Shown: positions 3,240-24,792 of the stretch, piece after piece
How the letters are laid out: every line of letters starts with the position of its first letter
Position numbering within the stretch: position 1 is the stretch's first letter
Virus record (IMG/VR): IMGVR_UViG_3300048079_000215
Coordinates: 1 to 25,015 of that record
DNA from: a virus
Strand: one strand, 5' to 3'
DNA length: 25,015 bases
Program-made: the position numbers and the translations under genes
The notes under the pieces: generated by a model
Database searches by the model: none
Told to the model about the DNA's origin: nothing
The model's input: only the letters and a program-made list of their open reading frames with translations

Positions 3240-4624
3240 GCGACCTCCTCGAAAAGACTGAGCTGCGGGACCGGCTTCTGAGCTTCTTCAACAGCGGCAG
3301 CGGCGAGACGCATCTCGTACTCAATTCGTGAGCGCGCGATTTCCACGTACTCTGGCGTCATGTCGATGCCGGTGAAACGGAAGCCTTCGCGCATGCACGC
3401 CTTACCGGTCGATCCGCTGCCCATGAAGGGATCCAACACCAGGCCGCCAAATGGCGTCACCAAGCGAACCAGGTAGGCCATGAGCTCGGTGGGCTTCACG
3501 GTTGGATGATGGTTGCCGTTGCGTGCAGTCCAGTCGGCCGTCTCGCAGTCGCGCATGGTGGCGTCCTTGGTCACGGCCGCAGCGCCTTGGCTGGCCAGGC
3601 CCTCATTGCGATCAGCGCGGCTGGCCTTAGCGCAGTAGAAGAAACGCGCCGCGCTGCCGCTGTCGCCCTGGAACGTGCTGCCGGCCTCATCCACGTTGCC
3701 GGCGAACGCGCCGAACGCGTTGCGGAATTTGTCGCCGTTGCGTTTGTGCACTGGCGCCTGCGCCGGGAACAGCGCCACCACCTCGTCGCTGCCGTCGTGG
3801 ATCAGGTTCGCGGGCCAGCGGCCGGCGTCGCTCCCGGTCGGATAGCTCGACGACCGATCCTCATAGCGATGGTCCTGGTTGGCATAGGAGTCGCCAGGCG
3901 CGCCGCGCGAAGTCATGATCTTCAGTGTGGCGCGGCGAGTACTCTCGTCGCCGACCCTGCACCCGTCGATGTTGATCGCGCCAGTCCCGAACTGCAGCAG
4001 GTTCGCCGCCACGGTGAGGCCCTTGGCCAGTGGCTTGCGCGCGACACAGATCGGCTCGTGCGCCGGCTTGAGGGCGGTCCCCCATCCTTCCCACTGCTGG
4101 GCACCGGCGGTCGCGGCGCGTGTCACCTGCGGGACGTACTCGCGGCCGTTGTCCTTGATCCAGCTGCCGGTCGCATCCTGGTCAGCGCCAGGGATCATGC
4201 GCTTGACGGCCCTGCCCTCGCTGATGACCTCGCGCGCGGCGCCTGCTTGCTTGTCGATCGCCTTGCTGATGTTCTGCGACTTCGGGAAGCCCGACCCGTA
4301 CACCCACATGATTTGGTCACGGATATCGAACCCTGCATCCTCGAGCGCCACCGCCATTCGGTGATACGTGCGCGACCCGCTGAAGGCCAGCAAGTGGCCG
4401 CCCGGCTTGAGCACGCGCAGCGCCTCTCTCCACATCTCGACGCTATACGCGATGCCGCTGGCGTCCCAGGCCTTGCCCATGAAACCCAACTCGTACGGCG
4501 GGTCAGTGACGATCGAGTCGACCGAGTTGTCGGCCATAGATAGCATTACCTCGATGCAGTCGCCAGGGTGCAGCGTGAATGGGACTGTCTGGCCAGCATT
4601 ATCGGTTTTCATCATGTCTAGCAT
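3236..4624 (-). CDS. beta-class DNA methyltransferase (N6-adenine or N4-cytosine) with C-terminal clamp-binding motif
   Basis: The protein is 462 aa from the ATG at 4624. I chose this start because GGAGAGG lies just upstream and the ATG overlaps the previous TAG (ATGCTAG); an ATG at 4660 would overlap the upstream gene by 43 nt. Motif IV DPPY (residues 41-44) precedes motif I DPFMGSGSTG (about 398-407), followed by GIDMTPEYVEIA. This is the order of beta-class amino-methyltransferases such as CcrM, M.HinfI and M.PvuII. HHPTVKP marks motif X. A ~150-aa insert (about 150-320) between the two halves is probably target recognition. No restriction partner is adjacent, so it is likely a solitary phage enzyme for self-protection or regulation. 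The last nine residues, QLSLFEEVA, contain an exact consensus sliding-clamp pentapeptide. Confidence 0.92.
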   Translation of the reverse strand: MLDMMKTDNAGQTVPFTLHPGDCIEVMLSMADNSVDSIVTDPPYELGFMGKAWDASGIAYSVEMWREALRVLKPGGHLLAFSGSRTYHRMAVALEDAGFDIRDQIMWVYGSGFPKSQNISKAIDKQAGAAREVISEGRAVKRMIPGADQDATGSWIKDNGREYVPQVTRAATAGAQQWEGWGTALKPAHEPICVARKPLAKGLTVAANLLQFGTGAINIDGCRVGDESTRRATLKIMTSRGAPGDSYANQDHRYEDRSSSYPTGSDAGRWPANLIHDGSDEVVALFPAQAPVHKRNGDKFRNAFGAFAGNVDEAGSTFQGDSGSAARFFYCAKASRADRNEGLASQGAAAVTKDATMRDCETADWTARNGNHHPTVKPTELMAYLVRLVTPFGGLVLDPFMGSGSTGKACMREGFRFTGIDMTPEYVEIARSRIEYEMRLAAAAVEEAQKPVPQLSLFEEVA

Positions 4625-5115
4625 GCTGCCTCTCCTTGCTCTTTTATCATTGCAGCGCACTCAGCTAACAGCGCCAGCTGGGTGCCGTAGCGAGCCTCAA
4701 AGCGCGCCTTGTATGGATGGACGGCGATCAGTGTCGGATTCGTGCCGGTGCCGTCTTGGTGGTGGCCAGCGCACAGCGGCAGAACCAGCAGGTGCGCGCC
4801 CGGCTTCGTGCGGCCGTCGATGTGGTGCACGCTAACGTCTGGGTTGCTCCAGCCGTCGTGACGGCATGCCACGCAGCCCAGGTCGGCGATTGCGCTCATG
4901 AACCGCGCTTCGTCGGCGGTCGGCGGGCGTCCCTTCATCCCGCGCGAGGCCATAGGCTTCGGCAGCTTCGGTTCACGGGCCCGGGCCTTCGTCTGTACTG
5001 CAGCGACGCGCAGCAGGCCAGCGCCAGCTGCGGGTGTCTTGAAGCCGGTTCCGCGCGCCATCGGTGCCTTGCGCGCCAGCGGCTCCCCCTGCTTGAGGAT
5101 CGACCGACGCATCAT
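4618..5115 (-). CDS. Ref-like HNH nuclease (RecA-dependent nuclease family)
   Basis: The protein is 165 aa from the ATG at 5115, which overlaps the TGA of the preceding minus-strand ORF as ATGA. A basic, disordered N terminus (LARKAPMARGTGFK, KARAREPKLPKPMASRGMKGRP) precedes the compact domain CVACRHDGWSNPDVSVHHIDG (from residue 81), RTKPGAHLLVLPLCAGHHQDG. This matches the P1 Ref family: CxxC (C81, C84), the HH of the HNH site (H97, H98) and C115 with HH at 118-119 for zinc and metal. Ref is known to make RecA-filament-directed double-strand cuts and to enhance recombination. The role in this phage is inferred, but it fits a recombination/replication operon. Confidence 0.85.
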   Translation of the reverse strand: MMRRSILKQGEPLARKAPMARGTGFKTPAAGAGLLRVAAVQTKARAREPKLPKPMASRGMKGRPPTADEARFMSAIADLGCVACRHDGWSNPDVSVHHIDGRTKPGAHLLVLPLCAGHHQDGTGTNPTLIAVHPYKARFEARYGTQLALLAECAAMIKEQGEAAC

Positions 5116-9839: not shown

Positions 9840-9868
9840 ACTTTAGCTTACTAAAGTTAAACATGCAA
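9840..9868 (-). promoter_or_regulatory. cro (leftward early) promoter
   Basis: On the minus strand, TTGCAT (-35, 9868-9863) is separated by 17 nt from TAAAGT (-10, 9845-9840). The -10 is embedded in operator O1 (9841-9856). The rightward early promoter at 16677-16705 has the same spacing and almost the same -10 context (TTTAGTAAGCTAAAGTATT against TTTAGTAGGCTAAAGTATT), which supports both calls. Confidence 0.65.
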
Positions 9869-9903
9869 GCACGCTAAAGCGAAAAACATTTAGAGTGCTA
9901 AAC
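9841..9903. promoter_or_regulatory. operator cluster O1-O3 between cro and cI
   Basis: Three 16-bp sites occur at regular 23-24 bp intervals. O1, 9841-9856, is CTTTAG-CTTA-CTAAAG with perfect arms. O2, 9864-9879, is TGCAAG-CACG-CTAAAG with one good half. O3, 9888-9903, is ATTTAG-AGTG-CTAAAC. O1 overlaps the cro -10. O3 abuts the cI start codon (9904) and would block cI expression. The same motif recurs at 16654-16704. This regular array is the expected binding pattern for CI and Cro dimers. Confidence 0.75.
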
Positions 9904-10581
9904 ATGGATGATCTGGCAACACGACTTAAACAAGCAATGGCAGAGCTCGGGCTCAAGAACAGCGTCGAGCTCGCGACTTTTTGCGACGTATCGCAAGGCC
10001 TTGTGGCGCAGTGGTTCTCAGGAACTACGAGGCTCGGGCCGAAACCACTAAAGGCCTTCGCCCGCACTCATTTCAGCCTGGACTGGCTTACGGACGGGAA
10101 GCTCCCTAAATACCGTCCTGTTGCAGTAGAAGCCCCCTCTGATGTGGAAGACGCGCCCGCAATTATCGGAACACCGCGACTGCTTCCTGTAGCGGGCCGG
10201 GTCCAGGCGGGTGAGGATGGCTTGCTGCACATCGACGATTTCCCGCCTGAACACCCAGAGGGGTACGTGGTCTGGTTCACCTCGTGCGTGGAGGCGTACG
10301 CGCTGCGCGTGCGCGGCGAGAGCATGAGTCCACGGTATCTGCCCGGGGAGTTTGTCGGAGTTGACCCATGTGCAGACGTGTACCCGAGTGACGAAGTAAT
10401 CGTCCTACTGAGCGATGGTCGAAGGATGATCAAGCGGCTGCTCTGGCAAAGAGACGATCAGGCGTGCTTCGAGTCCGTGAACAAAGACTTCCAGAACATC
10501 GTCGTAGACCTTGAGGAAATCACTGCGTTGCACTTAGTGCTAGGACACATCCCGAAATCAGCCTTCCGCCCAAGCGTGTGA
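9904..10581 (+). CDS. cI: CI-like repressor (HTH plus S24/LexA-type self-cleavage domain)
   Basis: The protein is 225 aa from ATG 9904. The upstream ATG at 9895 lies inside O3 and is less likely. The N-terminal HTH covers about residues 5-60 (ATRLKQAMAELGLKNSVELATFCDVSQGLVAQWFSG). The S24 domain includes a cleavage-site candidate A97-G98 (LLPVAGRVQAG), the catalytic serine in GESMSPRYLPGEF (S140) and the lysine in DGRRMIKRLL (K177), so RecA-stimulated autocleavage after DNA damage is expected. It should maintain lysogeny by binding the CTTTAG-N4-CTAAAG operators on both sides of the cargo block. It is divergent from cro. Confidence 0.93.
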   Translation: MDDLATRLKQAMAELGLKNSVELATFCDVSQGLVAQWFSGTTRLGPKPLKAFARTHFSLDWLTDGKLPKYRPVAVEAPSDVEDAPAIIGTPRLLPVAGRVQAGEDGLLHIDDFPPEHPEGYVVWFTSCVEAYALRVRGESMSPRYLPGEFVGVDPCADVYPSDEVIVLLSDGRRMIKRLLWQRDDQACFESVNKDFQNIVVDLEEITALHLVLGHIPKSAFRPSV

Positions 10582-11050: not shown

Positions 11051-11821
11051 TTACTGGCGCTTCGATCGTTTTGCACCGTACATGCCAAGCATTGCAATAC
11101 CAAGCAGGGCGATGCTACTCGGTTCAGGCACATCGACCGGCGGCGTATCGGAAAAGGTCCCGGCTTCGATGAATACTCCGGAGTCTAAGTCATCGTCGCC
11201 CACATCACGAATGAAAAACTCAAATGTGTTTAATCCTGTCAAGCCTGTGAGCTGAGCAGTTAGGACGTTCGTAAGCCCATCGTAGCCCGTATTGTAACTG
11301 CCAGAAGTGTTGTCGCGAAAATAGGCCGAGTTGGTATTATTGTTGACATTATTGATTGATACCGCCCCGCCTCCGTTCGGCAAGGTGGCAATATTAACGC
11401 CATTCACACGAAGCTCGAATAGATCGTTAAATGAACTACCGACATACTCGTTGTATTCCTCCGAACCGAAAATATATCGAAAGAAAACGTTCCCGTTGTT
11501 GCTGGAAAAGTCAAATTTCAGCGAGGTTGTCGTACCACTACCGCTACAAGCAGTGGAAGTGCTTGGCGCATTAGCGCAAGCCACATTGCCGGTTGTTAAT
11601 AAAATACCGCTATTAAAACCGAGATTTCCGCCTCCTGTAAAAATTCCGGATGCCGTGCTTGAAGCACCGTTATACGATACGTTACTGATGTTGACACCTG
11701 CTCCAGCAATTGTACTTGCCAAAACAGCCCCATCAGTAGTAGACGTGATTGTAATAGCGCTAGCAGAACTAGCAAGGAATGAGAGTGCCACTGCCGATGC
11801 CAGCTTGATTGTGTTTTTCAT
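11051..11821 (-). CDS. exported choice-of-anchor L-type protein with PEP-CTERM sorting signal
   Basis: The protein is 256 aa from ATG 11821 (MKNTIKLASAVALSFLASSASA); upstream in-frame starts would add residues before a clean signal peptide, which ends at about residue 22 (ASA). The body contains Gly/Asn/Ser-rich beta repeats with GSEEYNEYVGSSFNDLFELRVNG and FEFFIRDVGDDDLDSGVFIEAGTF, the pattern of choice-of-anchor L domains. The C terminus is a textbook PEP-CTERM tail: VPEPSS, a hydrophobic helix (IALLGIAMLGMYG) and a basic end (AKRSKRQ). It would be sorted by exosortase and linked to exopolysaccharide. AT-richer codons and reversed strand mark it as recently acquired cargo in the prophage. 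Confidence 0.9.
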   Translation of the reverse strand: MKNTIKLASAVALSFLASSASAITITSTTDGAVLASTIAGAGVNISNVSYNGASSTASGIFTGGGNLGFNSGILLTTGNVACANAPSTSTACSGSGTTTSLKFDFSSNNGNVFFRYIFGSEEYNEYVGSSFNDLFELRVNGVNIATLPNGGGAVSINNVNNNTNSAYFRDNTSGSYNTGYDGLTNVLTAQLTGLTGLNTFEFFIRDVGDDDLDSGVFIEAGTFSDTPPVDVPEPSSIALLGIAMLGMYGAKRSKRQ

Positions 11822-11885
11822 TTTATCTCTTTCAGGAGTGATTGATAAGTGCAGCAATCGAACATTTAGCAAGATGTGTGCCAGA

Positions 11886-14415: not shown

Positions 14416-14937
14416 ATGGCATCTATCCAGTGTTCAGGCTGCAAGGCCCATATCACCGTCCCAGGGCTGATCAACTGTCCGCGGTGCCAGACGTTCTTGG
14501 ACCCGCCTTTCCTACGCGAGCGCGCCGCCGCAGATGCTAAAGCTGCGGCCCGGGCAGCTGCCGCGAGACAGCTTTTAGGGCCGAAAGAATGGCTCGGACT
14601 AGCAGTTCTTGCGGCCGTCATCGTTGGCATGCTTTCGATCGGCTACCGAGTTCTTCAGCCAAGCGAAAGTCAGGCTCAAGATCGGAAGGTGATGTCAGCC
14701 CTCTTCGCATGCCAGCAGCGCATTACCGGACTGGCTGAGTATGGCGAAGCCGACACGCCGCCCTATTCCAAGAATTTCGGCAAGGGCGACGAGTTCTACT
14801 TCGCTTGGCAGCGGGGATCCTTCCACTTCAAGAACGGCTTCGGCGCATCTGTCCCGATGTCGGCTAGCTGCATCGGCTCCGTGTCGACGGGCGAGATTCA
14901 GCATTTGACTGTGAATGGCAAAGACGTCATCTCTTGA
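14416..14937 (+). CDS. zinc-ribbon/single-TM cargo protein, second gene of the R2 operon
   Basis: The 173-aa protein has an N-terminal zinc ribbon with CSGC (C6, C9) and CPRC (C21, C24). An Ala/Arg-rich helix (RERAAADAKAAARAAAARQL) links it to a membrane helix about 59-77 (WLGLAVLAAVIVGMLSIGY). The outer domain carries two Cys and the EFYFAW and GEIQHLTVNGKDV motifs shared with the paralogue at 13331. The stop overlaps the next start (TTGA), so it is coupled to the 318-aa protein. This places a cytoplasmic metal-binding head and an outside domain on one anchor, an arrangement suited to sensing. Function is unknown. Confidence 0.78.
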   Translation: MASIQCSGCKAHITVPGLINCPRCQTFLDPPFLRERAAADAKAAARAAAARQLLGPKEWLGLAVLAAVIVGMLSIGYRVLQPSESQAQDRKVMSALFACQQRITGLAEYGEADTPPYSKNFGKGDEFYFAWQRGSFHFKNGFGASVPMSASCIGSVSTGEIQHLTVNGKDVIS

Positions 14938-15890
14938 CCACGATTTCATCGTCCAACGAACAAGAACAACGAGCTATTGATAAAATGATCGACATGAGCT
15001 CCACGCATTTTTCCATCAAGTATGATGGCCCTGCCCTCGCTACCCATGAGATGGATGTTCATGAGCTGGCGCCCGCACTTATGGCTCTCTCGGAGATGAT
15101 TAAGTCTGCGAACCAAGCGTTATATGGCGATAAAGCAGACGTCAAAGTGCAGGTTAAGGGTTCGTTCAAAGGCGGTTCATTCGGCATTGATCTTACCGCT
15201 GTTCAAACGCTCTACCAACAGATCACGTCTGTACTCGCCGGGCAAGGGCCGACTGCTTTTGCGAACCTAATGACGCTCTTGGCAGCGCTCGGGCTAGTCG
15301 GCGGTGGAGGGCTGCTTGCGCTGCTTGTACAACTCCAGGGCAGGAAACCCATCAGGATTGAGAACCAAGATAACAACACTGTTTTCATCATGACCGATGA
15401 AATTTCGACCGAGCGGATCGAGGTTGACTTGGCGACGGGTAAGCTTTGGAAAGATAAGGCTGTCCGTAAGAGTCTTCAGCAGGTACTGCGCCCCCTTTCA
15501 CAAGAGGGGATCGACACCTTTGCAGCGGGACGTTCTCAGGTGCCAGAGCTTGTCATTACAAGTGCACAGTCACAATGGTTCATATTTGATGAGGCCGCAG
15601 TAGAGCTGACCTCTAGCATCATCGAGCAAGTTTGCCACATCGAGTCAGTCCCCTTTAAAAATGACAACAAGTGGAAGCTCAACAATGGGCAGACCATCTA
15701 CGCGTTCATGGAAGACGCGTCATTTCTTGCGGCCGTAAATGAAGGGACCATCCGGTTTGGCAGCGGTGATCGACTTACGGTCAGCATGAAGGTGGTTCAG
15801 TACGAGAAGAATGGGAAGCTTGAAACATCCTTTCACGTGCTCCAAGTTTTGGACCACCATATCGGCACGCAGCACTCATTATGGCCCTAG
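14934..15890 (+). CDS. 318-aa cargo protein of unknown function with Gly-rich hydrophobic segment
   Basis: The protein starts at TTG 14934, overlapping the upstream TGA, or at ATG 14985 (MIDMSSTHFSIKYDGPAL). The N-terminal domain (FSIKYDGPALATHEMDVHELAPALMALSEMIKSANQALYGD, VKVQVKGSFKGGSFGIDL) matches a widespread family of uncharacterised proteins that I recall from phages and islands. Next comes a hydrophobic Gly-rich stretch at about 110-134 (LMTLLAALGLVGGGGLLALLV), then a basic GRKPI and a mixed alpha/beta C-terminal half with DRLTVSMKVVQYEKNGKLETSFHVLQV. It is the last gene of a three-gene operon with two membrane proteins. A role in superinfection exclusion is my inference from position only. 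Confidence 0.8.
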   Translation: MTTISSSNEQEQRAIDKMIDMSSTHFSIKYDGPALATHEMDVHELAPALMALSEMIKSANQALYGDKADVKVQVKGSFKGGSFGIDLTAVQTLYQQITSVLAGQGPTAFANLMTLLAALGLVGGGGLLALLVQLQGRKPIRIENQDNNTVFIMTDEISTERIEVDLATGKLWKDKAVRKSLQQVLRPLSQEGIDTFAAGRSQVPELVITSAQSQWFIFDEAAVELTSSIIEQVCHIESVPFKNDNKWKLNNGQTIYAFMEDASFLAAVNEGTIRFGSGDRLTVSMKVVQYEKNGKLETSFHVLQVLDHHIGTQHSLWP

Positions 15891-16273
15891 CCGCGCAGCG
15901 CCTCTTTTCTGCGCACATAGTTCCGTCGTGGCCGGCGCAGAACAAAACCGTGCACCGCATGGATGGGTGCCAGACTTTGCTCCTGGCTTGAGCCCAGCTG
16001 AGCCAGTACAACCTCTGACTGCGCAATTTGCAGTCGATTGTCTATTCCTGTCAAGCCGCGGCGAGCTTTGTTCGCGGTCGACCGACTGGCGCGTGCAACG
16101 CGGGCCATGAGGTCTGCAAGCATGACTTTCGTGATCTCGACGTTGCCATAACGGGCCGGCCAGCCTGATACCAGCGGGTATGGGATCCCGAAGGCCTCAG
16201 CCTCTATACGGGTCAGCGACTTTACTTCTCCTCGTCCCTTGAGGTAGACCGCTATGGTCAATTTTTGCGACAT
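15887..16273 (-). CDS. conserved phage hypothetical protein
   Basis: The 128-aa protein has AGGAAAAAGG seven bases before the ATG. Residues 4-75 (KLTIAVYLKGRGEVKSLTRIEAEAFGIPYPLVSGWPARYGNVEIT...ADLMARVARASRSTANKARRGL) resemble a small family I remember from Oxalobacteraceae and other Burkholderiales prophages: a strand-rich start, EAEAFGIPYPL, then a basic helix. The C terminus is basic. The stop overlaps the opposing gene's stop (CTAG, 15887-15890). Three 10-bp direct repeats lie just upstream. Function unknown. Confidence 0.65.
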   Translation of the reverse strand: MSQKLTIAVYLKGRGEVKSLTRIEAEAFGIPYPLVSGWPARYGNVEITKVMLADLMARVARASRSTANKARRGLTGIDNRLQIAQSEVVLAQLGSSQEQSLAPIHAVHGFVLRRPRRNYVRRKEALRG

Positions 16274-16308
16274 TTTCGGGCCTTTTTCCTACGCACCCTC
16301 TATAGGTA

Positions 16309-16339
16309 CTGTTCAGGTTCTGTTCTTGGCTGTTCAGGT
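16309..16339 (+). repeat. three helically phased direct repeats CTGTTCAGGT-like
   Basis: CTGTTCAGGT (16309-16318), CTGTTCTTGG (16320-16329) and CTGTTCAGGT (16330-16339) recur every 10-11 bp, one turn of DNA. They lie 36-66 bp upstream of the minus-strand gene starting at 16273 and immediately before the structured block. A regulator binding one face of the helix would explain the phasing. Confidence 0.5.
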
Positions 16340-16344
16340 AGGTG

Positions 16345-16620
16345 TTTTTAAGTTGTTGGCTTTGCTTTATCCCAGCGGAGCCTCGGTTCCAGAGCGTAGC
16401 CCTCCCTAAAGCGGTCGACGTTTATCGACCTCCGTGGTGGGCTACCGCATCCCATGCTTTCGCCTTCGGACACTTTCGCTTGTTCGCAGACTTCCCAGGC
16501 ATCTCTACCTGTCCCCCGGCGCGCTCTACGATCCACCCACGCGTTGCCCTTCCGGTCGTCCTTGGCACTTGAGCCTGAGCGTCGGCGGTTTCCCCTCCCT
16601 GCCCCAAGCCTGCAGTCGAA
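16345..16620 (+). ncRNA. putative large structured RNA (possible orphan HEARO/omega-RNA-like)
   Basis: This ~275-bp stretch is GC-rich between AT-rich flanks and has no credible ORF. The frames that stay open read as Arg/Pro/Ser-rich noise. It is packed with complementary segments. A closing pair joins GGCTT 16358-16362 with AAGCC 16606-16610. GTAGCCC 16396-16402 pairs with GGGCTAC 16439-16445 and encloses the hairpin GGTCGA (16413-16418)/TCGACC (16425-16430). GCAT/ATGC lies at 16447-16457 and CAGG/CCTG at 16496-16511. The strand is uncertain: plus gives CUUCGG-type loops, minus gives GCGAAAGC GNRA loops. From memory the GGCTACCGCATCC...GCTTTCGCC core recalls HEARO RNAs, the IscB guide RNAs, but no iscB is present. 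Confidence 0.45.
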
Positions 16621-16653
16621 AATTCTTAAGTGACGAAATAATTTTATCACGAA

Positions 16654-16704
16654 CTTTAGCAAACTAAAGAAAGTTCTTGTGCTGTTTTATTTAGTAGGCT
16701 AAAG
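16654..16704. promoter_or_regulatory. second operator pair, OL-like
   Basis: CTTTAG-CAAA-CTAAAG (16654-16669) and ATTTAG-TAGG-CTAAAG (16689-16704) are the same 16-bp operator as O1 and O3 beside cro. They stand in front of the rightward operon, 6.8 kb away. The second site covers the -10 of the promoter at 16677-16705, so repressor binding would shut that operon off. Confidence 0.78.
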
Positions 16705-16786: not shown

Positions 16787-17077
16787 ATGGACATCACCGG
16801 CATCAGCAAACCAGCACTGCTCGCAGCGCTGTTCAGCGCATCGAAGCAACAAGGCCTGGGCTTCATGGACCAGCGCGGCGCAGCCCCGATGACCGAAGAG
16901 GACGCAGCTGCGGTAATCGAGCAGCAGGGCCTGCACTTCGACTACCTGCGCGGCCGGGTCATGAAGATCGGCATCGATGGCGACACGCTTAATCCTCGCC
17001 TGTATGACCGCGACAACGGTGCAGGCGCCGCCGAGCGCGCAGTTGCGTCCTTGCGTGCTACTGCAAGTGCCGCATGA
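16787..17077 (+). CDS. conserved phage hypothetical protein, first gene of the rightward operon
   Basis: The 96-aa protein has AGGAGA before its ATG. The sequence LLAALFSASKQQGLGFMDQRGAAPMTEEDAAAVIEQQGLHFDYLRGRVMKIGIDG...LYDRDNGAGAAERAV follows a small family often found in early regions of Burkholderiales and enterobacterial phages. Its constant parts are ALxxAS..QGLGF, a helix, FDYLxGRVMK and YDRDNGxGAA. Function is not known. The stop overlaps the next start as ATGA. Confidence 0.75.
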   Translation: MDITGISKPALLAALFSASKQQGLGFMDQRGAAPMTEEDAAAVIEQQGLHFDYLRGRVMKIGIDGDTLNPRLYDRDNGAGAAERAVASLRATASAA

Positions 17078-17550
17078 CCCAGCAGTACGACCAGGATTAC
17101 CTGAAGCAGGCAATCGCCGACGAGCGCGAGATTGCGCGACTTGACCTGCGCGTGCGCACCTCGATGCCCGGCGGCCTGGGTCTCTCGATCGACTCAAACG
17201 TTTACCTGATGACGGGCCGTGTCGGCAGCGGCAGCGGCATTCGCACAAGCGAGATCATGTCGAAGTGGCGGCGCGACCCGCGGGCCGCTGGCGCGCTCGC
17301 CATCAAGCATGCGCTGAACATCAAACACGACCCCGACGAGTACTTGGTGACCGTGGGATACGGCCCTGGCCGACGCGGCGTCACTGAGCACTACGGCTCC
17401 CACCCCAACCGGGACGCCGCGACGATGGCCGCAATCACCCGCGCCACCCTGCAGAAGCTCACCGAAGAACGCGACGAAGCTGCCGCGCTCAACCCTACTC
17501 GCTCGAAGCCGAGCCGTCAGCCCGTCGCGCGGGCCAAATCAAAAACTTGA
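17074..17550 (+). CDS. phage hypothetical protein
   Basis: In this 158-aa protein a charged N-terminal helix (QQYDQDYLKQAIADEREIARLDL) precedes a Gly/Ser-rich segment and KWRRDPRAAGALAIKHALNIKHDPDEYLVTVGYG. A helix (AATMAAITRATLQKLTEERDEAAAL) and a Lys/Arg-rich tail (KPSRQPVARAKSK) end it. The basic tail suggests nucleic-acid contact. It is coupled to the preceding gene by ATGA. No family is recognised. Confidence 0.65.
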   Translation: MTQQYDQDYLKQAIADEREIARLDLRVRTSMPGGLGLSIDSNVYLMTGRVGSGSGIRTSEIMSKWRRDPRAAGALAIKHALNIKHDPDEYLVTVGYGPGRRGVTEHYGSHPNRDAATMAAITRATLQKLTEERDEAAALNPTRSKPSRQPVARAKSKT

Positions 17551-17557
17551 GGTCCCG

Positions 17558-17683
17558 ATGATTCGCTTTTTACTTTTCTTTGGCATGGACTGGGCCGAGC
17601 GCCACTCGGGCGTGATGCTCGCTTTGCTGGCCCTGCTGATCTGCCTGGCCGGCGCAATCGATCCGATCGCGCCACACCTGTAA
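17558..17683 (+). CDS. 41-aa single-helix membrane protein
   Basis: This short ORF (MIRFLLFFGMDWAERHSG, then a hydrophobic helix VMLALLALLICLAGAI, ending IAPHL) has GAGG five bases before its ATG and fills the gap between two operon genes. Codons are GC-rich at third positions. Miniproteins of this type are common in phage early operons, but the function is unknown. Confidence 0.55.
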   Translation: MIRFLLFFGMDWAERHSGVMLALLALLICLAGAIDPIAPHL

Positions 17684-17711
17684 CTGACTTCCCGATAACG
17701 AAGGAACCACG

Positions 17712-18611
17712 ATGTTTTTCCGAAACCTCCAGATCTACCGCCTGCCGGCGCCGTATGCGATGACCGCCGACGCGCTGGCCTGCGCACTCACGATCCAGGC
17801 GTTCACGCCGGCGTCGAGCAGCGAGCTGCTGCGTCAAGGGTGGCAGTCGCCACGCGGCGCCGGCATGCCGCTCGTGCACGCAGTGAACGGCCAGCTCCTC
17901 CTGCAGCTCATTACCGAGAAGAAGGTGCTGCCAGCAAAGGTAATCAACCAGGTCGCCGCGGCGCGCGCCGATGAGATGGAAGAGCAGCAAGGGTTCCGCC
18001 CGGGGAAGAAGGCTATGCGTGAGTTGAAAGAGCGCGTTGCCGACGAGCTGCTGCCACGCGCGTTCCCGATCCGCTCGGCGGTGCTCGTGTGGATCGATCC
18101 GGTCAATGGCTGGCTCGTGGTCGATGCGTCGGGCCCGGCCAAGGCTGACGACGTCGTCAAGCTGCTGCTCAAGGCAGTCGACAAGATGCCGCTGGAATCG
18201 CTACGCGTGCAGCGTTCGCCGGTGGCCGTGATGACTGGCTGGCTCGAAGCCGATGAAGCGCCGTACGGCTTTACGATCGACCAGGATGCGACGCTGCGCG
18301 CTACCGGAGAGAGCCGTGCCCAGGTCGGGTACAAGCGCCACACTCTGGACCCACAGGACACCCGGCGCCACATCGCCGCTGGCAAACAGTGCACGCGCCT
18401 CGCGCTGACGTGGAACGACCGCATCAGCTTCGTACTGGACGAATCGCTGGCTATCAAGAGCATCAAACCGCTGGACGTGCTCAAGGAGGGTGCAATTGGC
18501 GTGCATGACGCCGACGAACGCTTTGACAGCGACTTCGCTCTCATGTCGGGTGAGCTGGCCAAGCTGCTGGCGGACCTGGTCGAAGCGATGGGCGGTGAGG
18601 CGCGAGCATGA
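17712..18611 (+). CDS. rdgC: RdgC-type recombination-associated protein
   Basis: The 299-aa protein is close to the ~303-residue E. coli RdgC. It starts MFFRNLQIYRLP, the near-universal RdgC N terminus. It continues with GWQSPRG, a KKVLPAKVINQVAAARADEMEEQQGFRPGKKAMRELKERVADELLPRAF block (about 70-118) and WIDPVNGWLVVDASGPAKADDVVKLL. RdgC forms a ring dimer on double-stranded DNA and limits RecA filament activity. A phage copy could protect replicating phage DNA or adjust RecA, which also matters for the CI self-cleavage and for the Ref-like nuclease encoded in the other arm. It is coupled to the next gene by ATGA. Confidence 0.93.
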   Translation: MFFRNLQIYRLPAPYAMTADALACALTIQAFTPASSSELLRQGWQSPRGAGMPLVHAVNGQLLLQLITEKKVLPAKVINQVAAARADEMEEQQGFRPGKKAMRELKERVADELLPRAFPIRSAVLVWIDPVNGWLVVDASGPAKADDVVKLLLKAVDKMPLESLRVQRSPVAVMTGWLEADEAPYGFTIDQDATLRATGESRAQVGYKRHTLDPQDTRRHIAAGKQCTRLALTWNDRISFVLDESLAIKSIKPLDVLKEGAIGVHDADERFDSDFALMSGELAKLLADLVEAMGGEARA

Positions 18612-18781
18612 AGCGTCGCGCACGGCGCGCACCTAGCGCCGATTTGCAGACGTGGACGCCAGCCGACCGCACGGCTATCCAGCAGTCTCGCGTCAATGTG
18701 CAGTCTAGCCGCCACCAGCGCGCGGTGGCGATTGAAAAGGCTTTCGCCGCAGCGCGGCCAACGGAACCGAGGAAACCATGA
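18608..18781 (+). CDS. 57-aa basic protein, unknown
   Basis: The ATG overlaps the rdgC stop (ATGA) and the TGA overlaps the next start (ATGA). The sequence MKRRARRAPSADLQTWTPADRTAIQQSRVNVQSS...AVAIEKAFAAARPTEPRKP is highly basic, with Arg clusters at both ends. The double 4-nt coupling supports translation. Nothing points to a specific function; DNA or RNA binding is possible from charge. Confidence 0.6.
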   Translation: MKRRARRAPSADLQTWTPADRTAIQQSRVNVQSSRHQRAVAIEKAFAAARPTEPRKP

Positions 18782-19200
18782 GCGACAGTTTGCAAGTACA
18801 CCCAGTCATTCGCGAGGGCGAGAGCATCATCCCCGCGGCCGATAACCGCGACATGATGCGCCGCCTCGACGACCAATCGCTGCCCAGCGCACCGCTGGAC
18901 TGGGGCAATGACGGCACGCCGCTGCCGCCGTCGAGCATCGTCTACCTTTACCGACCGCACGCAGGCGGCTTCGCCCTATGGTCCGAAATCAGGACCCAAG
19001 AGCGCCTGGCCGAAGTGCAGGCATCGCCCGGCCACTTCGAGCTGCGCGTGCTGTTCACGGTCCCCGTTGAGGATCTGGCGCGCGGCGCGCTTGTGCCGAT
19101 CATGGAAGCGCGCCTGCGCCTGGACCGCATCAAGAAAGCCACCGACCAGGCCATCTCCGGCATGCACGACGTGATTCGCGAACTGGCGGTGAAGCCATGA
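18778..19200 (+). CDS. phage hypothetical protein
   Basis: The 140-aa protein starts in overlap with the small basic gene. The N terminus is polar (SLQVHPVIREGESIIPAADNRDMMRRLDDQ). The middle (SSIVYLYRPHAGGFALWSEIRTQERLAEVQASPGHFELRVLFTVP) is strand-rich, and a C-terminal helix follows (DRIKKATDQAISGMHDVIREL). No family is recognised and no catalytic residues stand out. Its stop is shared with the next gene's ATGA. Confidence 0.65.
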   Translation: MSDSLQVHPVIREGESIIPAADNRDMMRRLDDQSLPSAPLDWGNDGTPLPPSSIVYLYRPHAGGFALWSEIRTQERLAEVQASPGHFELRVLFTVPVEDLARGALVPIMEARLRLDRIKKATDQAISGMHDVIRELAVKP

Positions 19201-19298
19201 GCGAGCACCGCCTGCGGGTCATCAAATGGAAGTGCGCGCTCGTCGTGCTGTATTGCGCCGCATGCGCCTGGGCGATCACCCACGGGTGGGCGCTGTGA
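19197..19298 (+). CDS. 33-aa single-helix membrane protein
   Basis: ATGA overlap with the upstream stop and GTGA overlap with the downstream gene frame this short ORF. After a basic start (MSEHRLRVIKWK) comes one hydrophobic, Cys-containing helix (CALVVLYCAACAWAITHGWAL). Coupling on both sides is the main evidence for translation. Function unknown. Confidence 0.5.
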   Translation: MSEHRLRVIKWKCALVVLYCAACAWAITHGWAL

Positions 19299-19456
19299 CC
19301 TTCGAAGAATTGCGCATCACCTACCAGTGCCCCGAGCAGATGGCCCGCGATCTTTTCGCTCAGGTCGCGCTCGAGCAGGCACTCCGCGCCAAGGCCGAAA
19401 ACAAACTGAACCCGCCGGCACCGCGCCGCGCCCACCGAGACCCAGAGGAAGACTGA
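19295..19456 (+). CDS. 53-aa protein, GTG start, unknown
   Basis: GTG 19295 overlaps the preceding TGA. The sequence begins VTFEELRITYQCPEQMARDLFAQVALEQALRAKAENKL, a helix-turn-helix-like short domain, and ends in a Pro/Arg/Glu tail. TGA and the next ATG share one base (TGATG at 19454-19458). It is probably a small regulator or adaptor, but that rests on shape only. Confidence 0.5.
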   Translation: MTFEELRITYQCPEQMARDLFAQVALEQALRAKAENKLNPPAPRRAHRDPEED

Positions 19457-20556
19457 TGACCATCGCCGAATCCATCCAGCTCAACAAAGAGCAAATTGCC
19501 CGCGCCTTCGGCGTGCCCGCCCATATGCTGGCGGACCCTGATCGCACTGTGGCGCCGCGCTACTGGTCGCTGTGCATGACCAGCGAGAACCACGGCACCG
19601 TCGGCCCGGCCGGCTGCAAATTCAGCCACGCACCCGAGAAGCACGAGCGCGTGCTGGTGGTCGAAGTGCCTGCCGCTGCCGGCGCGCCGACCGACCAGGT
19701 CAACCTGCAGCTCGTTACCAGCGGGGGCGGCCAGGCTGACGTAGATCGCGCGCTGAGGGCTGCGCAGGCTTGGGCGAACGAGGAGTATATGTGCGGGCGT
19801 CGCATGGGCAAGGGTGAACCGGCAATGTCCGATCGAGCCGAGGCCGCCAAAAGCGAGTGTGTTGCGGCGATCCTCGCGCTCGCAGCCCCTGTCGCGGCAC
19901 AAGCCGGTCACGTAGCGGTTCCGGAAGGCTGGAAGCTGGTACCTGTTGAGCCTACCCCCGACATGGTGACGAGCGGCTTCGAATCGGTGCCTGATGAATT
20001 TTTCAGTCCTGGTGAGGACTGGGACACGTATGCCGCTATGACCGGCTGCCAAAAGGCGGCGCACCGGGCGCGGCTGTGCTACGCAGCTATGCTCGCCGCT
20101 GCTCCCGCAGCGCCAGCACAAGCCGCGCCTCTCCCAGTACAGGCAGCGCCGGCGTCGGCCGAACGGATCGAGTGCTGGTCGCACAACGAAGAGGACTTCA
20201 GCGCAAAGTCGTTGGGCGAGCTGATCGATACGCACGAGCTGCAACCGGGCGCGACTGTATGGGCTGGAGAAGCCGTCCATCCTGAGCCGTCGAGCCTGTT
20301 CAGCACCGACTGGGTGATCGAGAACATGGGCGAAGCCGCGTACGATATCGCTGGCGAGCACGGCGGCGAGGACTATCCGAACGTAAGCGATGAGCAGGTG
20401 GCCGAGCTAGAAGCGCTCGTCGTCGGCTGGATCACGAAGTGCGCCCCTCCCACCTTCTGGACTGTCAAGAACGTGCGGCCCTATGTCCTGACCGCCGAAG
20501 ATTGCGAAGATCAGGCATCTACATCAGGCGAGCGCCAGGAAGGCGGTGCAGCGTGA
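19456..20556 (+). CDS. modular phage protein with portal-like N-terminal fragment
   Basis: The protein is 366 aa from ATG 19456, chosen over an in-frame start at 19327 that would overlap the coupled 53-aa gene. The N terminus ESIQLNKEQIARAFGVPAHML (about 5-25) resembles the EQIARAFGVP motif of HK97-type portal proteins, here detached from a portal. A middle module has VAVPEGWKLVPVEPTPDM...YAAMLAAAP, common in phage hypotheticals. A Pro/Ala linker (about 215-235) leads to a C-terminal module with STDWVIENMGEAAYDIAGEHGGEDYPNVSDEQVAELEALV and TVKNVRPYVLTAEDC. It reads as a mosaic of small phage domains. Function unknown. Confidence 0.7.
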   Translation: MTIAESIQLNKEQIARAFGVPAHMLADPDRTVAPRYWSLCMTSENHGTVGPAGCKFSHAPEKHERVLVVEVPAAAGAPTDQVNLQLVTSGGGQADVDRALRAAQAWANEEYMCGRRMGKGEPAMSDRAEAAKSECVAAILALAAPVAAQAGHVAVPEGWKLVPVEPTPDMVTSGFESVPDEFFSPGEDWDTYAAMTGCQKAAHRARLCYAAMLAAAPAAPAQAAPLPVQAAPASAERIECWSHNEEDFSAKSLGELIDTHELQPGATVWAGEAVHPEPSSLFSTDWVIENMGEAAYDIAGEHGGEDYPNVSDEQVAELEALVVGWITKCAPPTFWTVKNVRPYVLTAEDCEDQASTSGERQEGGAA

Positions 20557-20897
20557 GTGCCGTCGCCGAACGTCTGACCAAAGCTGGCCGTCGCTTCGTG
20601 GATGACATGACCCGTTGCCGTGGCATGAGCTGGGTGCGCCTGGGCATGCAAGTCGAAGTCGATGGCCACCTGGGCACCATCAAGGGCATGAACAGCAGCG
20701 CCAACCTCGACGTGGTGTTTGCGAATCAGCTCAAGTGGGGAAAGCAGAAGCACAACTGCCACCCGACCTGGCAGACGCGCTACTTCGACGAAGCGGGTCG
20801 GGTGATCAAGGATTACACCGAGACGGCACGCGCCGTGCGCAGCAACGCCGTGAAGGCGCCGCTTGCGAGCGCCGACCCGACGAACATTCAATATTGA
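20553..20897 (+). CDS. phage hypothetical protein, GTG start
   Basis: The protein is 114 aa from GTG 20553, which overlaps the preceding TGA (GTGA); an upstream start would intrude 114 bp into the previous gene. The core (GMSWVRLGMQVEVDGHLGTIKGMNSSANLDVVFANQLKWGKQKHNCHPTWQTRYFDEAGRVI) reads as a small beta-barrel like those used for DNA or RNA contact, with VEVDGHLGTIKGMN typical of a KOW/SH3-like turn. No family is certain. It is followed seven bases later by the next gene. Confidence 0.65.
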   Translation: MSAVAERLTKAGRRFVDDMTRCRGMSWVRLGMQVEVDGHLGTIKGMNSSANLDVVFANQLKWGKQKHNCHPTWQTRYFDEAGRVIKDYTETARAVRSNAVKAPLASADPTNIQY

Positions 20898-20904
20898 GAG
20901 CGAC

Positions 20905-22005
20905 ATGACCACCACCCCTACCGCGTCCCCTGAACTGCCGGGCCTGGACAATCTGGAAACTCAAGCGCGCGCCGCCGATCAGGATGGCCAGCACATTTAC
21001 ACCAACCCGCGCGATTCCGACAACTGGCGGGCGAACGAGATTTGGCATTACTTAGCATCGCCTGCCGCCGTGCTGGCCCTGATCGCCCTTGCTCGCCGCG
21101 CCCAGCCAGAGGGCGAAGCGCCGCAAGCCGAGCCAGTGGCCAGGGTTATAGCCGGAGAATGGGGCAAGAAAGTTGCATTTCTTGCGAACGGCAAGGACGC
21201 CCCTAAGGTTGGCACCTTGCTGTACACAGAGAGCGGCAAAGAGACCGCGCAACTGAGCATAGGTTTCGCCAACAACGACCAGGGCGTGCACGTCAGCGTC
21301 ATGCAGCAGCACGCCGGCGGCCCCGTCACCTTACTGCACCAGTCCAAAGTGCCAGCCGGCGACAGCTTTGCGCGCTTCGCCGTCGCCGCCCAGCAAACTG
21401 CAGTACCGCATGAATTGAAGTCAAACTCGTTTGTCGCTCAAAATCATGAAGAAATGGCGATCAAAACCCAGCAAGCCGCAGCACCGGGCGCTCTGTACAG
21501 CTATATGGGCGAGAGCGGCCGATACGAACTGCTCGGTCACGCTGTCGGCGCCGGCAAGTGCAAGCTGGTTGAGCCGCTTGCAATCTACCGCGACACCGCG
21601 ACCGACAACTTGTACTTCCGCGACCCTGCCGACTTTGCCGAGCGCATGGTAGCGATCGAAGAAAACACCCCCGAATTCGGGGGAATTAAAACCACCGCCC
21701 CCGGCACACCGGAAGCGCCGACCACGCTCATGCAGGCGCTGACCACTGGCATTCCGCTTCAAGAGCCGGTGCACATAACCAAGGCGCTCCGCGCGCAGCG
21801 TGAAGTTCGCGTGTCACTGGCTGGTGGTACCGGCCCGGGCGCCGCCGCGTTTCTGGTGAACATCCAGATGACGCCATGGACCCACACCAAGGAGACGGCC
21901 GAAGCATTTGCTTATGGCTACAACCGCGCGCTCAAGGAATACCGCGCCGCGCTTTTGGATGTCGCCGCCCAGCTCGACGGCAGCCAGGAAGGGAGCGGAT
22001 CGTGA
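20905..22005 (+). CDS. modular phage protein with DUF1653-like segment
   Basis: The protein is 366 aa from ATG 20905, with GAGAG upstream. The N-terminal part has RANEIWHYLASPAAVLALIALARRAQPEGEAP, then a module EWGKKVAFLANGKDAPKVGTLLYTESGK. The segment YSYMGESGRYELLGHAVGAGKCKLVEPLAIYRDTATDNLYFRDPADFAERM (about 192-242) matches the DUF1653 outline (Y.y.G..YEVLG.A......E.LV.YR.......WVRP...F). A helical C terminus has AEAFAYGYNRALKEYRAAL. Short Pro/Ala-rich joins separate the parts. It resembles its neighbour at 19456 in architecture, not in sequence. Function unknown. Confidence 0.7.
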   Translation: MTTTPTASPELPGLDNLETQARAADQDGQHIYTNPRDSDNWRANEIWHYLASPAAVLALIALARRAQPEGEAPQAEPVARVIAGEWGKKVAFLANGKDAPKVGTLLYTESGKETAQLSIGFANNDQGVHVSVMQQHAGGPVTLLHQSKVPAGDSFARFAVAAQQTAVPHELKSNSFVAQNHEEMAIKTQQAAAPGALYSYMGESGRYELLGHAVGAGKCKLVEPLAIYRDTATDNLYFRDPADFAERMVAIEENTPEFGGIKTTAPGTPEAPTTLMQALTTGIPLQEPVHITKALRAQREVRVSLAGGTGPGAAAFLVNIQMTPWTHTKETAEAFAYGYNRALKEYRAALLDVAAQLDGSQEGSGS

Positions 22006-22391
22006 TCGGGCCGGCGGGAACCTTCGCCGCGCCGACAGCGCGGGTGCAGACCGGTGAATTCTTTTCGGTCGAGCAGGCCAGCCAGCATGCAGCAGAGTGG
22101 TGCGCGAAGCATCCCGCATGGCTAAGGATCTGCGACCTGGGCGATATCGACAGCAACCAGTTCTATGTCCAGTGGCACGAGCTGAGCGCACGTGATCGCA
22201 ACGGCTGGGGTAGCGAGTATGCGTACGAAGAATTCGCGATCAGAAAGAGCAAGGTGGAAATGGGCTTCATCTCGGGGAAGGGGGAATTCTATTCCAATGT
22301 TCTGGACGTTCCCCTGTGGCACAACCTGATGCAGGTGGTGCGCGTAGGGGTCAAGATGGCTCGAGCAATTCGACGCCAGGAAGGGAGCTAA
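22002..22391 (+). CDS. phage hypothetical protein, GTG start
   Basis: The protein is 129 aa from GTG 22002 (GTGA overlap). Recognisable features: EFFSVEQASQHAAEWCAKHPAWLRICDLGD, strands FYVQWHELSARDRNGWGSEYAYEEFAIRKSKVEMGFISGKGEFYSN, and a basic C-terminal helix LMQVVRVGVKMARAIRRQEG. There is no clear family. An in-frame start at 21876 is rejected because it would overlap the preceding coding sequence by 130 bp. Confidence 0.6.
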   Translation: MIGPAGTFAAPTARVQTGEFFSVEQASQHAAEWCAKHPAWLRICDLGDIDSNQFYVQWHELSARDRNGWGSEYAYEEFAIRKSKVEMGFISGKGEFYSNVLDVPLWHNLMQVVRVGVKMARAIRRQEGS

Positions 22392-22395
22392 TCAA

Positions 22396-22884
22396 ATGGC
22401 TGATACCGGACTGAGCACCGCCCAGCGCCAGCTCGCGCACGGCAGAAAATACCCGTACGACGGCGGCAGCGAAGCCGCGCCGGCCATCGACTGGGCACAT
22501 GCAGCGGCGCGCGGCGTGATGGCTGATCTGCTGGATCGTCGTGGGGTCAAGTGGGAATTGGAGAAGGTCGATATCGACGTTCGCGCCGACATCGTGACGG
22601 CGGTTGCGGCGATTGTGCGCGCCGCCGCGCCATTGCCCAGCACCGCGCCCGTCAAGGATCATGTGGTGCGCGAGGTCGTGAACCGGCTGCGCGACACGAC
22701 GCTGGAGTTCCACGCGCACGGCAGCTTGCGCGAGCGTTTGGCGCGCGAACTGGAGCCGCTGCTGGTTGCTTCTCGCCCTGCTGAGGTGGACCCTGCTCAT
22801 CTGCTGCGTGAAGTGCTCGCCGTTGCCGTAAAGCTGCGCACGGACATCGATAAGGCGCTGGAGCGCACTGGTGGTGCACGGTGA
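22396..22884 (+). CDS. phage hypothetical helical protein
   Basis: The 162-aa protein has GGGAG before its ATG. It is largely helical: STAQRQLAHGRKYPYDGG, AIDWAHAAARGVMADLLDRRGVKWELEKVDIDVRADIVTAVAAIVRAAAP (about 31-80), then KDHVVREVVNRLRDTTLEF and LLREVLAVAVKLRTDIDKAL. The AAARGVMADLLDRRGVK...ID...R..IV...A.IV..A pattern is common in short phage-encoded hypotheticals. It is coupled to the next gene by GTGA (22881). Function unknown. Confidence 0.65.
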   Translation: MADTGLSTAQRQLAHGRKYPYDGGSEAAPAIDWAHAAARGVMADLLDRRGVKWELEKVDIDVRADIVTAVAAIVRAAAPLPSTAPVKDHVVREVVNRLRDTTLEFHAHGSLRERLARELEPLLVASRPAEVDPAHLLREVLAVAVKLRTDIDKALERTGGAR

Positions 22885-23081
22885 GCCTGGCCGAGATCAC
22901 ACACACGGCGCGCCGCGATCACCTGTGCGCCTTCTGCGGCATGACCGTGCGGAAGAACGAGCGGTACGTGCGCGCGCAGTCGCCGGGTGGCGCGCAGGCC
23001 AAGAAGGCGTTTCACAGCAACTGCTACACCGGCCTACTGGCCAGTCACAATCAGGAGACAGCGCATGAGCGCAATATTTGA
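22881..23081 (+). CDS. small zinc-finger-like phage protein
   Basis: The protein is 66 aa from GTG 22881. CAFCGMTVRKNERYVRAQ (C16, C19) and KAFHSNC (H44, C47) form a CxxC...HxxC arrangement like a treble-clef or LIM-type zinc site. The basic surface (RRDH, VRKNERYVR, KK) suits nucleic-acid binding. It overlaps the following gene by 17 nt. Metal binding is inferred from the spacing; the partner is unknown. Confidence 0.65.
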   Translation: MSLAEITHTARRDHLCAFCGMTVRKNERYVRAQSPGGAQAKKAFHSNCYTGLLASHNQETAHERNI

Positions 23082-23322
23082 ACTGTCGTTACCATCCGAG
23101 ACCCTAAGCGAAGATGAGATCAAGGACATCTCTGGGTGCTCCCGCTGCAACGACCAGGTCAATTGGTTGAAAAGCAACGGGTGGGTGTTCATTCTGAATC
23201 ACGCGAAGGTGCCGAAGGTGGGCAGGCTGTACGCTCGACTGAAGCTGGCAGGAATCAACCCTGCTTCACTGATGGCGCCCGAGGCGACAGGATGGCAAAT
23301 GGACATGTCCAACGTCCGATAA
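23065..23322 (+). CDS. DUF4224-like protein, probable excisionase/partner of integrase
   Basis: The protein is 85 aa from ATG 23065 with AGGAG upstream. SETLSEDEIKDISGCSRCNDQVNWLKSNGWVFILNHAKVPKVGR (about 10-53) follows the DUF4224 pattern (LsddEi..lTG...p..Q..wL...g..f..n..GrP.v.r). That family is a short winged-helix-like domain found next to phage integrases. Its location 10 bp before the integrase supports a role as excisionase or recombination directionality factor. Position and family fit are good; activity is inferred. Confidence 0.75.
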   Translation: MSAIFELSLPSETLSEDEIKDISGCSRCNDQVNWLKSNGWVFILNHAKVPKVGRLYARLKLAGINPASLMAPEATGWQMDMSNVR

Positions 23323-23332
23323 TAGGTAGACG

Positions 23333-24391
23333 ATGAGACCAAAGACCACCGGCAAAAAGCTGCCGCCGCGCATGCTCGCGCGGAAGAGAAAACTAAAATC
23401 AGGCTTGGTCTGGATCGGCTATTACTACAATGGCCGGGATTTAGACGGAAAGCGGACAGAGATTTCCCTGGGCACTGACCTGGCAGCCGCGAAACGAAAG
23501 TGGGCGGAACTCGAATGCGCGCCGGTGCCGGATGATGCATCGGTAATGCGGTACGTTTTCGACCAGTACGTGCGCGATATCCTGCCGAAGAAGAAGCCGT
23601 CCACGCAGCGCGAGAACAGGCTATGCCTTTCTCAGCTACGGCCGGTATTCGACGCGGCACCAATCGACGAAATCAGGCCGCAGGACATCGCCCGCTATCG
23701 TGACGCCAGGTCGGCGCCGGTGCGCGCCAACCGTGAGATCGCGCTGCTTTCGCACGTGTTCAACATGGCGCGTGAGTGGGGCTTCACGCAGCAAGACAAT
23801 CCCTGCCGCGGCGTCCGTAAGAATAAAGAGGTTCCCCGGGACTATTACGCCGAAGCGGACGTCTGGGATGCTGTGTTCGCTGCCGGCAGCCAGGCGCTGC
23901 GCGACGCGATGGATCTCGCCTACCTGTCGGGGCAGCGGCCGGCTGACGTACTCAAGATGCGCGTAATCGACATCCGGAATGACGAACTGCATGTCTCGCA
24001 GAACAAAACGGGCCACGCCCTGCGTATCCAACTGCATATTGATGGCGCGCCGACGCAGCTGGGCGCATGCGTAGATCGCCTGATGACGCGACCGGTAAAA
24101 TCGATGAGTGGCGTGCTGGTATGCACTGAAGAGGGTAAGGCGCTGACATCGAAGATGCTGCGCGATCGCTTTGATGCAGCGCGCAAGGTAGCCGCCATGG
24201 CGGCTGAGAAATCCCGAAACGAAGATTTAGCAGAACGCATCAAGGCATTCCAGTTCCGCGACATCCGTCCAAAAGCCGCGAGCGAAATCGCAAGCCTCGA
24301 AGACGCAAGCAAGCTACTTGGACACACCGACAAACAGATTACGCAGAAGGTTTATCGACGGGTCGGAGAAGTTGTTAAGCCAACAAAATAA
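23333..24391 (+). CDS. int: tyrosine-family phage integrase
   Basis: The 352-aa protein begins with an N-terminal arm-binding region (RKLKSGLVWIGYYYNGRDLDGKRTEISLGTD), then a core-binding domain (VMRYVFDQYVRDILPKKKPSTQRENRLCLSQL) and the catalytic domain. Active-site residues are R202 (LSGQRPADVL), K225 (SQNKTG), R312 (FRDIRPKAAS), H331 (LLGHT) and Y341 (QKVYRR). The usual H of HxxR is R309 here. It would integrate and excise the phage at attP/attB, which probably lies just downstream (after 24391), because the coding style changes there. It shares a transcript with the DUF4224-like gene. Confidence 0.94.
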   Translation: MRPKTTGKKLPPRMLARKRKLKSGLVWIGYYYNGRDLDGKRTEISLGTDLAAAKRKWAELECAPVPDDASVMRYVFDQYVRDILPKKKPSTQRENRLCLSQLRPVFDAAPIDEIRPQDIARYRDARSAPVRANREIALLSHVFNMAREWGFTQQDNPCRGVRKNKEVPRDYYAEADVWDAVFAAGSQALRDAMDLAYLSGQRPADVLKMRVIDIRNDELHVSQNKTGHALRIQLHIDGAPTQLGACVDRLMTRPVKSMSGVLVCTEEGKALTSKMLRDRFDAARKVAAMAAEKSRNEDLAERIKAFQFRDIRPKAASEIASLEDASKLLGHTDKQITQKVYRRVGEVVKPTK

Positions 24392-24408: not shown

Positions 24409-24792
24409 TTAGGAAACTTCAAAATCCCTTGTCACGTTAGATTTGAAACCCTTTTTACGCATGACTGTAATCACAACGTTTTTCTGAGTTGCAACGCTAT
24501 TCGCAAATTTTTTCTCAACAGCACAAGGCATGTTGATGTGACTAGATTTACAACGAATGTTGAACGTATTCCCATTCTGTAAACTCATCAGTGCCGACAT
24601 GTGTTGACTGATGAACCGATCAAAGATGTCACCTAACTCAACCAGCGTAATTGGTGGCACGTTTCGTAGGTCATTCACGCGGTCGAGTTTGAAATGGACA
24701 GTCAGGGTAAACGTCAAAGTAGAGCTTATGCCCTGCAGTCGATCGTTTAACCTCCGTTCCAAGCCATCGAGATCAGTTTGACTAATGGTCAT
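24409..24792 (-). CDS. unknown protein in AT-richer flank
   Basis: The 127-aa protein has Lys/Asn-rich composition unlike the phage genes. A helical start (DLDGLERRLNDRLQGISSTLTF), then LVELGDIFDRFISQHMSALMSLQNGNTFNIRCKSSHINMPC, and a basic end (VVITVMRKKGFKSNVTRDF). Its start overlaps the stop of the upstream ORF by 11 nt, suggesting a two-gene unit. No family is recognised. The codon-use shift directly after int suggests it lies outside the phage or in another element. Confidence 0.6.
   Translation of the reverse strand: MTISQTDLDGLERRLNDRLQGISSTLTFTLTVHFKLDRVNDLRNVPPITLVELGDIFDRFISQHMSALMSLQNGNTFNIRCKSSHINMPCAVEKKFANSVATQKNVVITVMRKKGFKSNVTRDFEVS

Follow-up and report, generated by a model that had tools for sequence, protein, structure and literature searches.

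Phages seldom carry large structured RNAs with a conserved fold, and for most of those that they do carry no function is known. Phage antiterminator RNAs lie early within early transcripts, and the put type is known from phage HK022. The C4 antisense RNA (RF01695) and isrK (RF01394) are likewise phage RNAs of the early or immunity region. The Betaproteobacteria-1 RNA (RF02932) was reportedly described in a 2017 paper; our literature search located nothing on that motif or on the RNA described here. The window analyzed, that is, the whole stretch of 25,015 nucleotides, is a virus record from IMG/VR and possibly a fragment. The first-pass annotation had pointed in it to a structured block of about 275 bp at 16345–16620, devoid of a credible reading frame, and had read this block as possibly an orphan omega-RNA of an IscB nuclease. 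We found that the block, which separates two genes of a Massilia-type prophage, does encode a structured RNA, on the minus strand. We propose, with a probability of about one half, that it represents a previously undescribed family of phage RNAs with a conserved fold, which would be repressor-controlled, early and trans-acting.

Successive exact-pattern scans of IMG/VR yielded 3, 10, 11, and 26 contigs carrying the block, and genome scans located it in Massilia brevitalea and two more genomes. Thirty close homologues, near-complete and derived from prophages, were aligned over 267 columns. None of the frames on either strand was open in more than 11 of the 30, and 125 of the 161 pairwise indels were one nucleotide long. 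Since one-nucleotide indels prevail and every frame is interrupted, a protein-coding gene was ruled out, in agreement with the earlier description of a block without a credible ORF. Searches for a tRNA or a tmRNA were negative. No copy of the RNA or of the 128-aa ORF next to it was found by blastn and tblastn in 50,697 phage records, or by blastn in 72,556 plasmids. The Rfam scan of both strands that had been advised matched no family: with Rfam 15 there was no match above the gathering score in the whole window and none at E ≤ 10 in the segment 16200–16760, RF02932 included.

The strand was given by the consensus fold of the 30-copy alignment. On the minus strand, RNAalifold gave −60.1 kcal/mol, against −26.7 ± 4.3 for column shuffles, whereas the plus strand, on which the RNA had been placed before, gave −26.4 against −18.9 ± 3.7. 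When the structure was imposed on the alignment, 96.8% of the cells were paired as compared to 34–44% with the partners slid, and both sides of a pair had changed in 64 cells versus 22 ± 3 in shuffles. The minus strand keeps its pairs via G-U at sites that would be A-C mismatches on the plus strand. Folded alone, the window sequence did no better than shuffles on the plus strand (z −0.6) and slightly better on the minus strand (z −1.3); the evidence for the fold is comparative, single-sequence folding being uninformative. On the minus strand, the transcript probably begins near 16634 and extends at least as far as 16363 (Table 1).

The predicted fold comprises the stems P1 to P6 and a pseudoknot. 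The 7-bp helix of the first-pass annotation, now P6, is restored among homologues by compensatory changes, in the series GUAGCCC/GGGUUAC, GGCGCUC/GGGUGCC, GUCACUC/GGGUGAC, and the 6-bp hairpin that it encloses is real. The non-coding nature of the block, this helix and this hairpin thus stood, whereas the strand and the closing pair 16358–16362/16606–16610 did not. The latter is not retained in homologues, and its arm 16606–16610 is part of the local covarying stem P1. The long-range stem P2 is paired in 99.4% of cells, yet it is nearly invariant and so draws little support from covariation. The P4 tetraloop is of the GNRA type in most copies, being GAGA in the window and GAAA, GGAA, or GGGA in kin. 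The pseudoknot, absent from the earlier description, was first spotted when reading the distant homologues, in which the P3 loop (..GUAGA) pairs with UCUGC.. downstream of P4.

Covariation was assessed with an R-scape-like test written for this analysis, combining a G-test with the average-product correction. In the null, the parsimony changes of each column were re-placed randomly on the tree. The alignment, including the distant homologues, was fitted to a model without the pseudoknot. In this home-made test, which is not R-scape and whose tail is extrapolated, which was phylogeny-aware and took in all 31,626 column pairs, the pseudoknot pair 16530–16485 came out on top (E = 0.0038), and the pseudoknot pair 16529–16486 also ranked high. 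The P4 pair 16506–16501 came next (E = 0.021 over all pairs), followed by the P6 pairs 16443–16398 and 16444–16397 (P6 E values of 0.18 and 0.78 over all pairs). The P1 pair 16605–16577 was recovered as well. With the close homologues alone the same pairs came out on top, none of them at E < 0.05 over all pairs, the power being limited by the few substitutions per column. With a covarying fold, no conserved ORF, and a location in phage DNA, the block is a structured non-coding phage RNA of the general kind. The fallback reading of the first-pass annotation, a candidate new RNA class, is strongly supported.

Table 1. Coordinates, within the window, of the RNA, its predicted structural elements, the putative control sites and the neighboring genes.
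Feature	Position	Strand	Remarks
Structured RNA (probable extent)	16363–16634	−	about 272 nt; core modeled 16363–16614; from 30 close homologues, model R1, strand test and pair counts
Stem P1	16573–16609	−	16601–16609 with 16573–16580; cap is a conserved GGGAGGGGAAACCGCC hairpin; compensatory changes in 4 of 8 pairs
Long-range closing stem P2	16372–16565	−	16559–16565 with 16372–16379; predicted
Stem P3	16514–16541	−	16534–16541 with 16514–16521; pseudoknot 5′ arm in its loop
Pseudoknot 5′ arm	16525–16532	−	..UCGUAGA
Pseudoknot 3′ arm	16483–16491	−	UCUGCGA..; same pairs from close homologues alone
Hairpin P4	16496–16511	−	GNRA-type loop
Stem P5	16447–16473	−	16468–16473 with 16447–16452; inner GCGAAAGC hairpin
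Stem P6	16396–16445	−	16439–16445 with 16396–16402; variable hairpin 16413–16430; double changes in 3 pairs
−10 hexamer TAAAAT of the predicted RNA promoter	16641–16646	−	TANNNT position kept across loci
Putative repressor operator TTTAGN4CTAAA, OL-like	16655–16668		nearer the RNA promoter; same layout in kin
Putative repressor operator TTTAGN4CTAAA, OL-like	16690–16703		rightward-promoter side; same layout in kin
Putative repressor operator TTTAGN4CTAAA, OR-like	9842–9855		cI/cro intergenic
Putative repressor operator TTTAGN4CTAAA, OR-like	9889–9902		cI start
CI-like repressor (HTH and S24 peptidase)	9895–10581	+	family matches
128-aa ORF downstream of the RNA	15887–16273	−	conserved in most carriers
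Divergent pL-like operon	16787–24391	+	RdgC 17712–18611; last gene is the integrase, 23333–24391

A covariance model, R1, was built and run on 393 genomes from the family to which Massilia brevitalea belongs. It retrieved nine further members in prophages (L040–L048) scoring 32–52 bits, its E-values being rough; matches below 30 bits (L049–L063, for instance) were left out, except for a leader shared by L018 and L019. In several of the distant relatives the RNA again has cI on one side and, on the other, a RecT operon from which it diverges. A different setting was seen in L065 and L070 (the contexts of L041 and L047), where the RNA follows the helicase and Toprim primase genes of an early replication operon, starting in L065 6 nt past the primase stop codon. 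Downstream of the distant homologue in L041/L065, and on the same strand, a tandem of isrK and C4 antisense RNA is present (2045–2238 of L041), itself located upstream of an antirepressor-like gene.

In the window the RNA is divergent from the recombination–integrase operon and points toward cI. In 26 of 28 loci a TANNNT hexamer was present 31–34 nt ahead of the point where the aligned RNA begins, and it is followed in the loci by a 5′ hairpin of variable sequence, which is weak in the window copy. A consensus scan detected no full sigma-70 site, so that the −35 element is weak. The window has just four perfect copies of the palindrome TTTAGN4CTAAA, two of them just upstream of the RNA and two at cI/cro. 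Given their position and sequence, these sites would be bound by the CI-like protein. Kin carry phage-specific operator sequences in the same arrangement (L003, L004, L008, L021, and L033) or in part of it (L010, L013, and L032), in which two operators precede the RNA, at about −90 and −55, and another one or two are found 1.7–7.5 kb downstream, toward cI. Because the operators at the RNA promoter are seen again solely around the cI/cro intergenic region, the site upstream of the RNA is, by analogy with lambda, the OL-like site of the phage.

The 128-aa protein encoded beyond the RNA has no family in Pfam, PHROGs, NCBIfam, or PADLOC and no fold match in the PDB (best E 2.9). Its N-terminal 70 residues are confidently predicted (pLDDT block means of 86–96), and it has a basic C-terminal motif. 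The linker 16274–16362 between the RNA and this ORF is conserved; on the minus strand it shows GAACAG repeats spaced by about 10–11 nt, and it contains a motif, AGUACCUAUA.AGGG, which recurs in other phage lineages. Tail to tail with the ORF, the two ends lying within 4 bp, is a plus-strand gene (14934–15890) with conflicting labels: PADLOC candidate defense family PDC-S42 (8e-82), NCBIfam “LAPAL motif-containing putative phage structural protein”, and PHROG 3243, a family without a known function. The minus-strand gene 11051–11872, located between cI and the RNA, would encode a secreted protein, an unusual cargo for a prophage, with a C-terminal PEP-CTERM-like sorting signal (VPEPSSIALLGIAMLGMYGAKRSKRQ) recognized by eye. 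A DNA methyltransferase gene is found in a leftward operon (3236–4660, minus strand; phrog_67, 5e-81), and a small PHROG 14518 protein of unknown function (24409–24792, minus strand) adjoins the integrase.

The site of the RNA may be occupied by another RNA. In the Massilia-type prophages L018 and L019 the same site holds RF02932, with the same 5′ leader, a member of the 128-aa ORF family, and the same CI/RdgC surroundings. In a second lineage, L085 possesses RF02932 and L043, L044, L045, and L048 possess the new RNA between homologous DNA on both sides (E down to 4e-31 upstream and 2e-22 downstream). A comparison of L082/L084 with L014, a locus of M. brevitalea CGMCC 1.10731, similarly showed the replacement of the RNA with conserved flanks on both sides. 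The third setting is that found after the primase gene, with RF02932 in L079 and in Acidovorax phage AP1, and the new RNA in L065 and L070. RF02932, which Rfam lists only as an sRNA, was thus observed in phage control regions or early operons at L082/L084, L085, L079, and L098, and this phage setting is possibly unrecorded.

Comparative evidence puts the start of the RNA at the conserved −10 hexamer, beside the two OL-like operators, and its course toward cI, and gives it a conserved fold of several stems with a pseudoknot and GNRA loops. For its control and action we propose the following scheme. In the lysogen the CI-like repressor would silence it, and during early lytic growth or upon induction it would be made together with the pL-like operon; both expectations come from the repressor–operator layout. 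The RNA would then act in trans as a self-contained molecule, most likely through protein binding. Two observations favor action in trans: the fold is conserved while the genes downstream of it differ from phage to phage, and complete RNAs of another family take its place at the same site. A more specific version, which we put forward tentatively, at less than even odds, would make it a novel class of phage effector RNA under repressor control, about 270 nt long and with a pseudoknotted core. It would be swapped as a cassette with Betaproteobacteria-1, both at the OL-like site and within the early replication operon, and its target in trans would be a factor of the host or of the phage during the first minutes of lytic growth.

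Other roles have to be weighed against action in trans. The RNA could be a cis-acting 5′ leader, of the riboswitch or protein-binding type, controlling the 128-aa gene, since in most close carriers this ORF lies only about 90 nt past the RNA with no terminator in between, and the linker is conserved. We consider this unlikely: a different gene stands at that place in L034, the isrK, C4, and antirepressor genes follow in L065, an unrelated 110-aa ORF follows in L066, and no gene-control switch such as a terminator or a sequestered start site is evident. The RNA starts no more than about 30 nt into the predicted transcript, and in L065 and L070 it is located inside an early operon. Both features would suit a put-type processive antiterminator acting in cis, binding the RNA polymerase as it emerges near the promoter so that transcription continues toward cI. 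There is nevertheless little to read through to, as most of the neighboring window genes beyond the 128-aa ORF are on the other strand. Moreover, in L065 and L070 the RNA is in the middle of the operon and not promoter-proximal, its length of about 270 nt compares poorly with the roughly 70 nt of put, and no Rfam match is shared, all of which makes such a function improbable.

High conservation and a position between operons might also be expected of a DNA element (an origin, a cos/pac or a recombination site) or of the relic of a coding gene. The pairs with G-U and the GNRA loops exist on one strand only, and the one-nucleotide indels break the frames, leaving very little room for either. It is just as improbable that the RNA acts as a sponge that titrates CsrA/RsmA, a translation regulator recognizing GGA motifs. 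The window copy has 12 such motifs, which is within the shuffled range (9.3 ± 2.4), and L027 has 8 as compared to 8.5; this candidate was rejected on these counts. The omega-RNA reading with which the first-pass annotation had led is now hardly credible. It drew on no more than a likeness to HEARO RNAs; the HEARO model (RF02033) matched neither strand at E ≤ 10, and none of 17 carrier records, three of them host genomes, contained the IscB N-terminal domain PF14239, a weaker test as the control genomes likewise had none. The guide had been placed just 5′ of 16345, which is not compatible with an RNA encoded on the opposite strand; as both the 5′ and the 3′ flanks are conserved among homologues and not hypervariable, there is no guide.

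The preferred reading, a trans-acting RNA under repressor control, can be set beside the known systems. Like the new RNA, HEARO is a large structured RNA with several hairpins, but it differs by its nuclease gene, its guide, the opposite strand, and the lack of any match in sequence and structure. C4 and isrK are separate RNAs with structures of their own and do not match the block. The put RNA of HK022 is also an early phage RNA near an operator-controlled promoter; it is much shorter and situated on the lytic transcripts themselves, and no match between it and the new RNA was found. The Betaproteobacteria-1 RNA occupies the same genomic site and is swapped with the new RNA among sister phages. 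Judged by eye, its second hairpin has a loop resembling one in the new RNA, and a loop pseudoknot is plausible there, whereas model R1 finds only the shared leader in L018 and L019 and no core match at the other RF02932 loci. It seems that a phage is able to use either RNA. The new RNA brings a testable regulatory logic, with putative CI-type operators at its promoter, and it is linked to an Rfam family of unknown role, so that work on a single Massilia lysogen could bear on the function of both RNA families.
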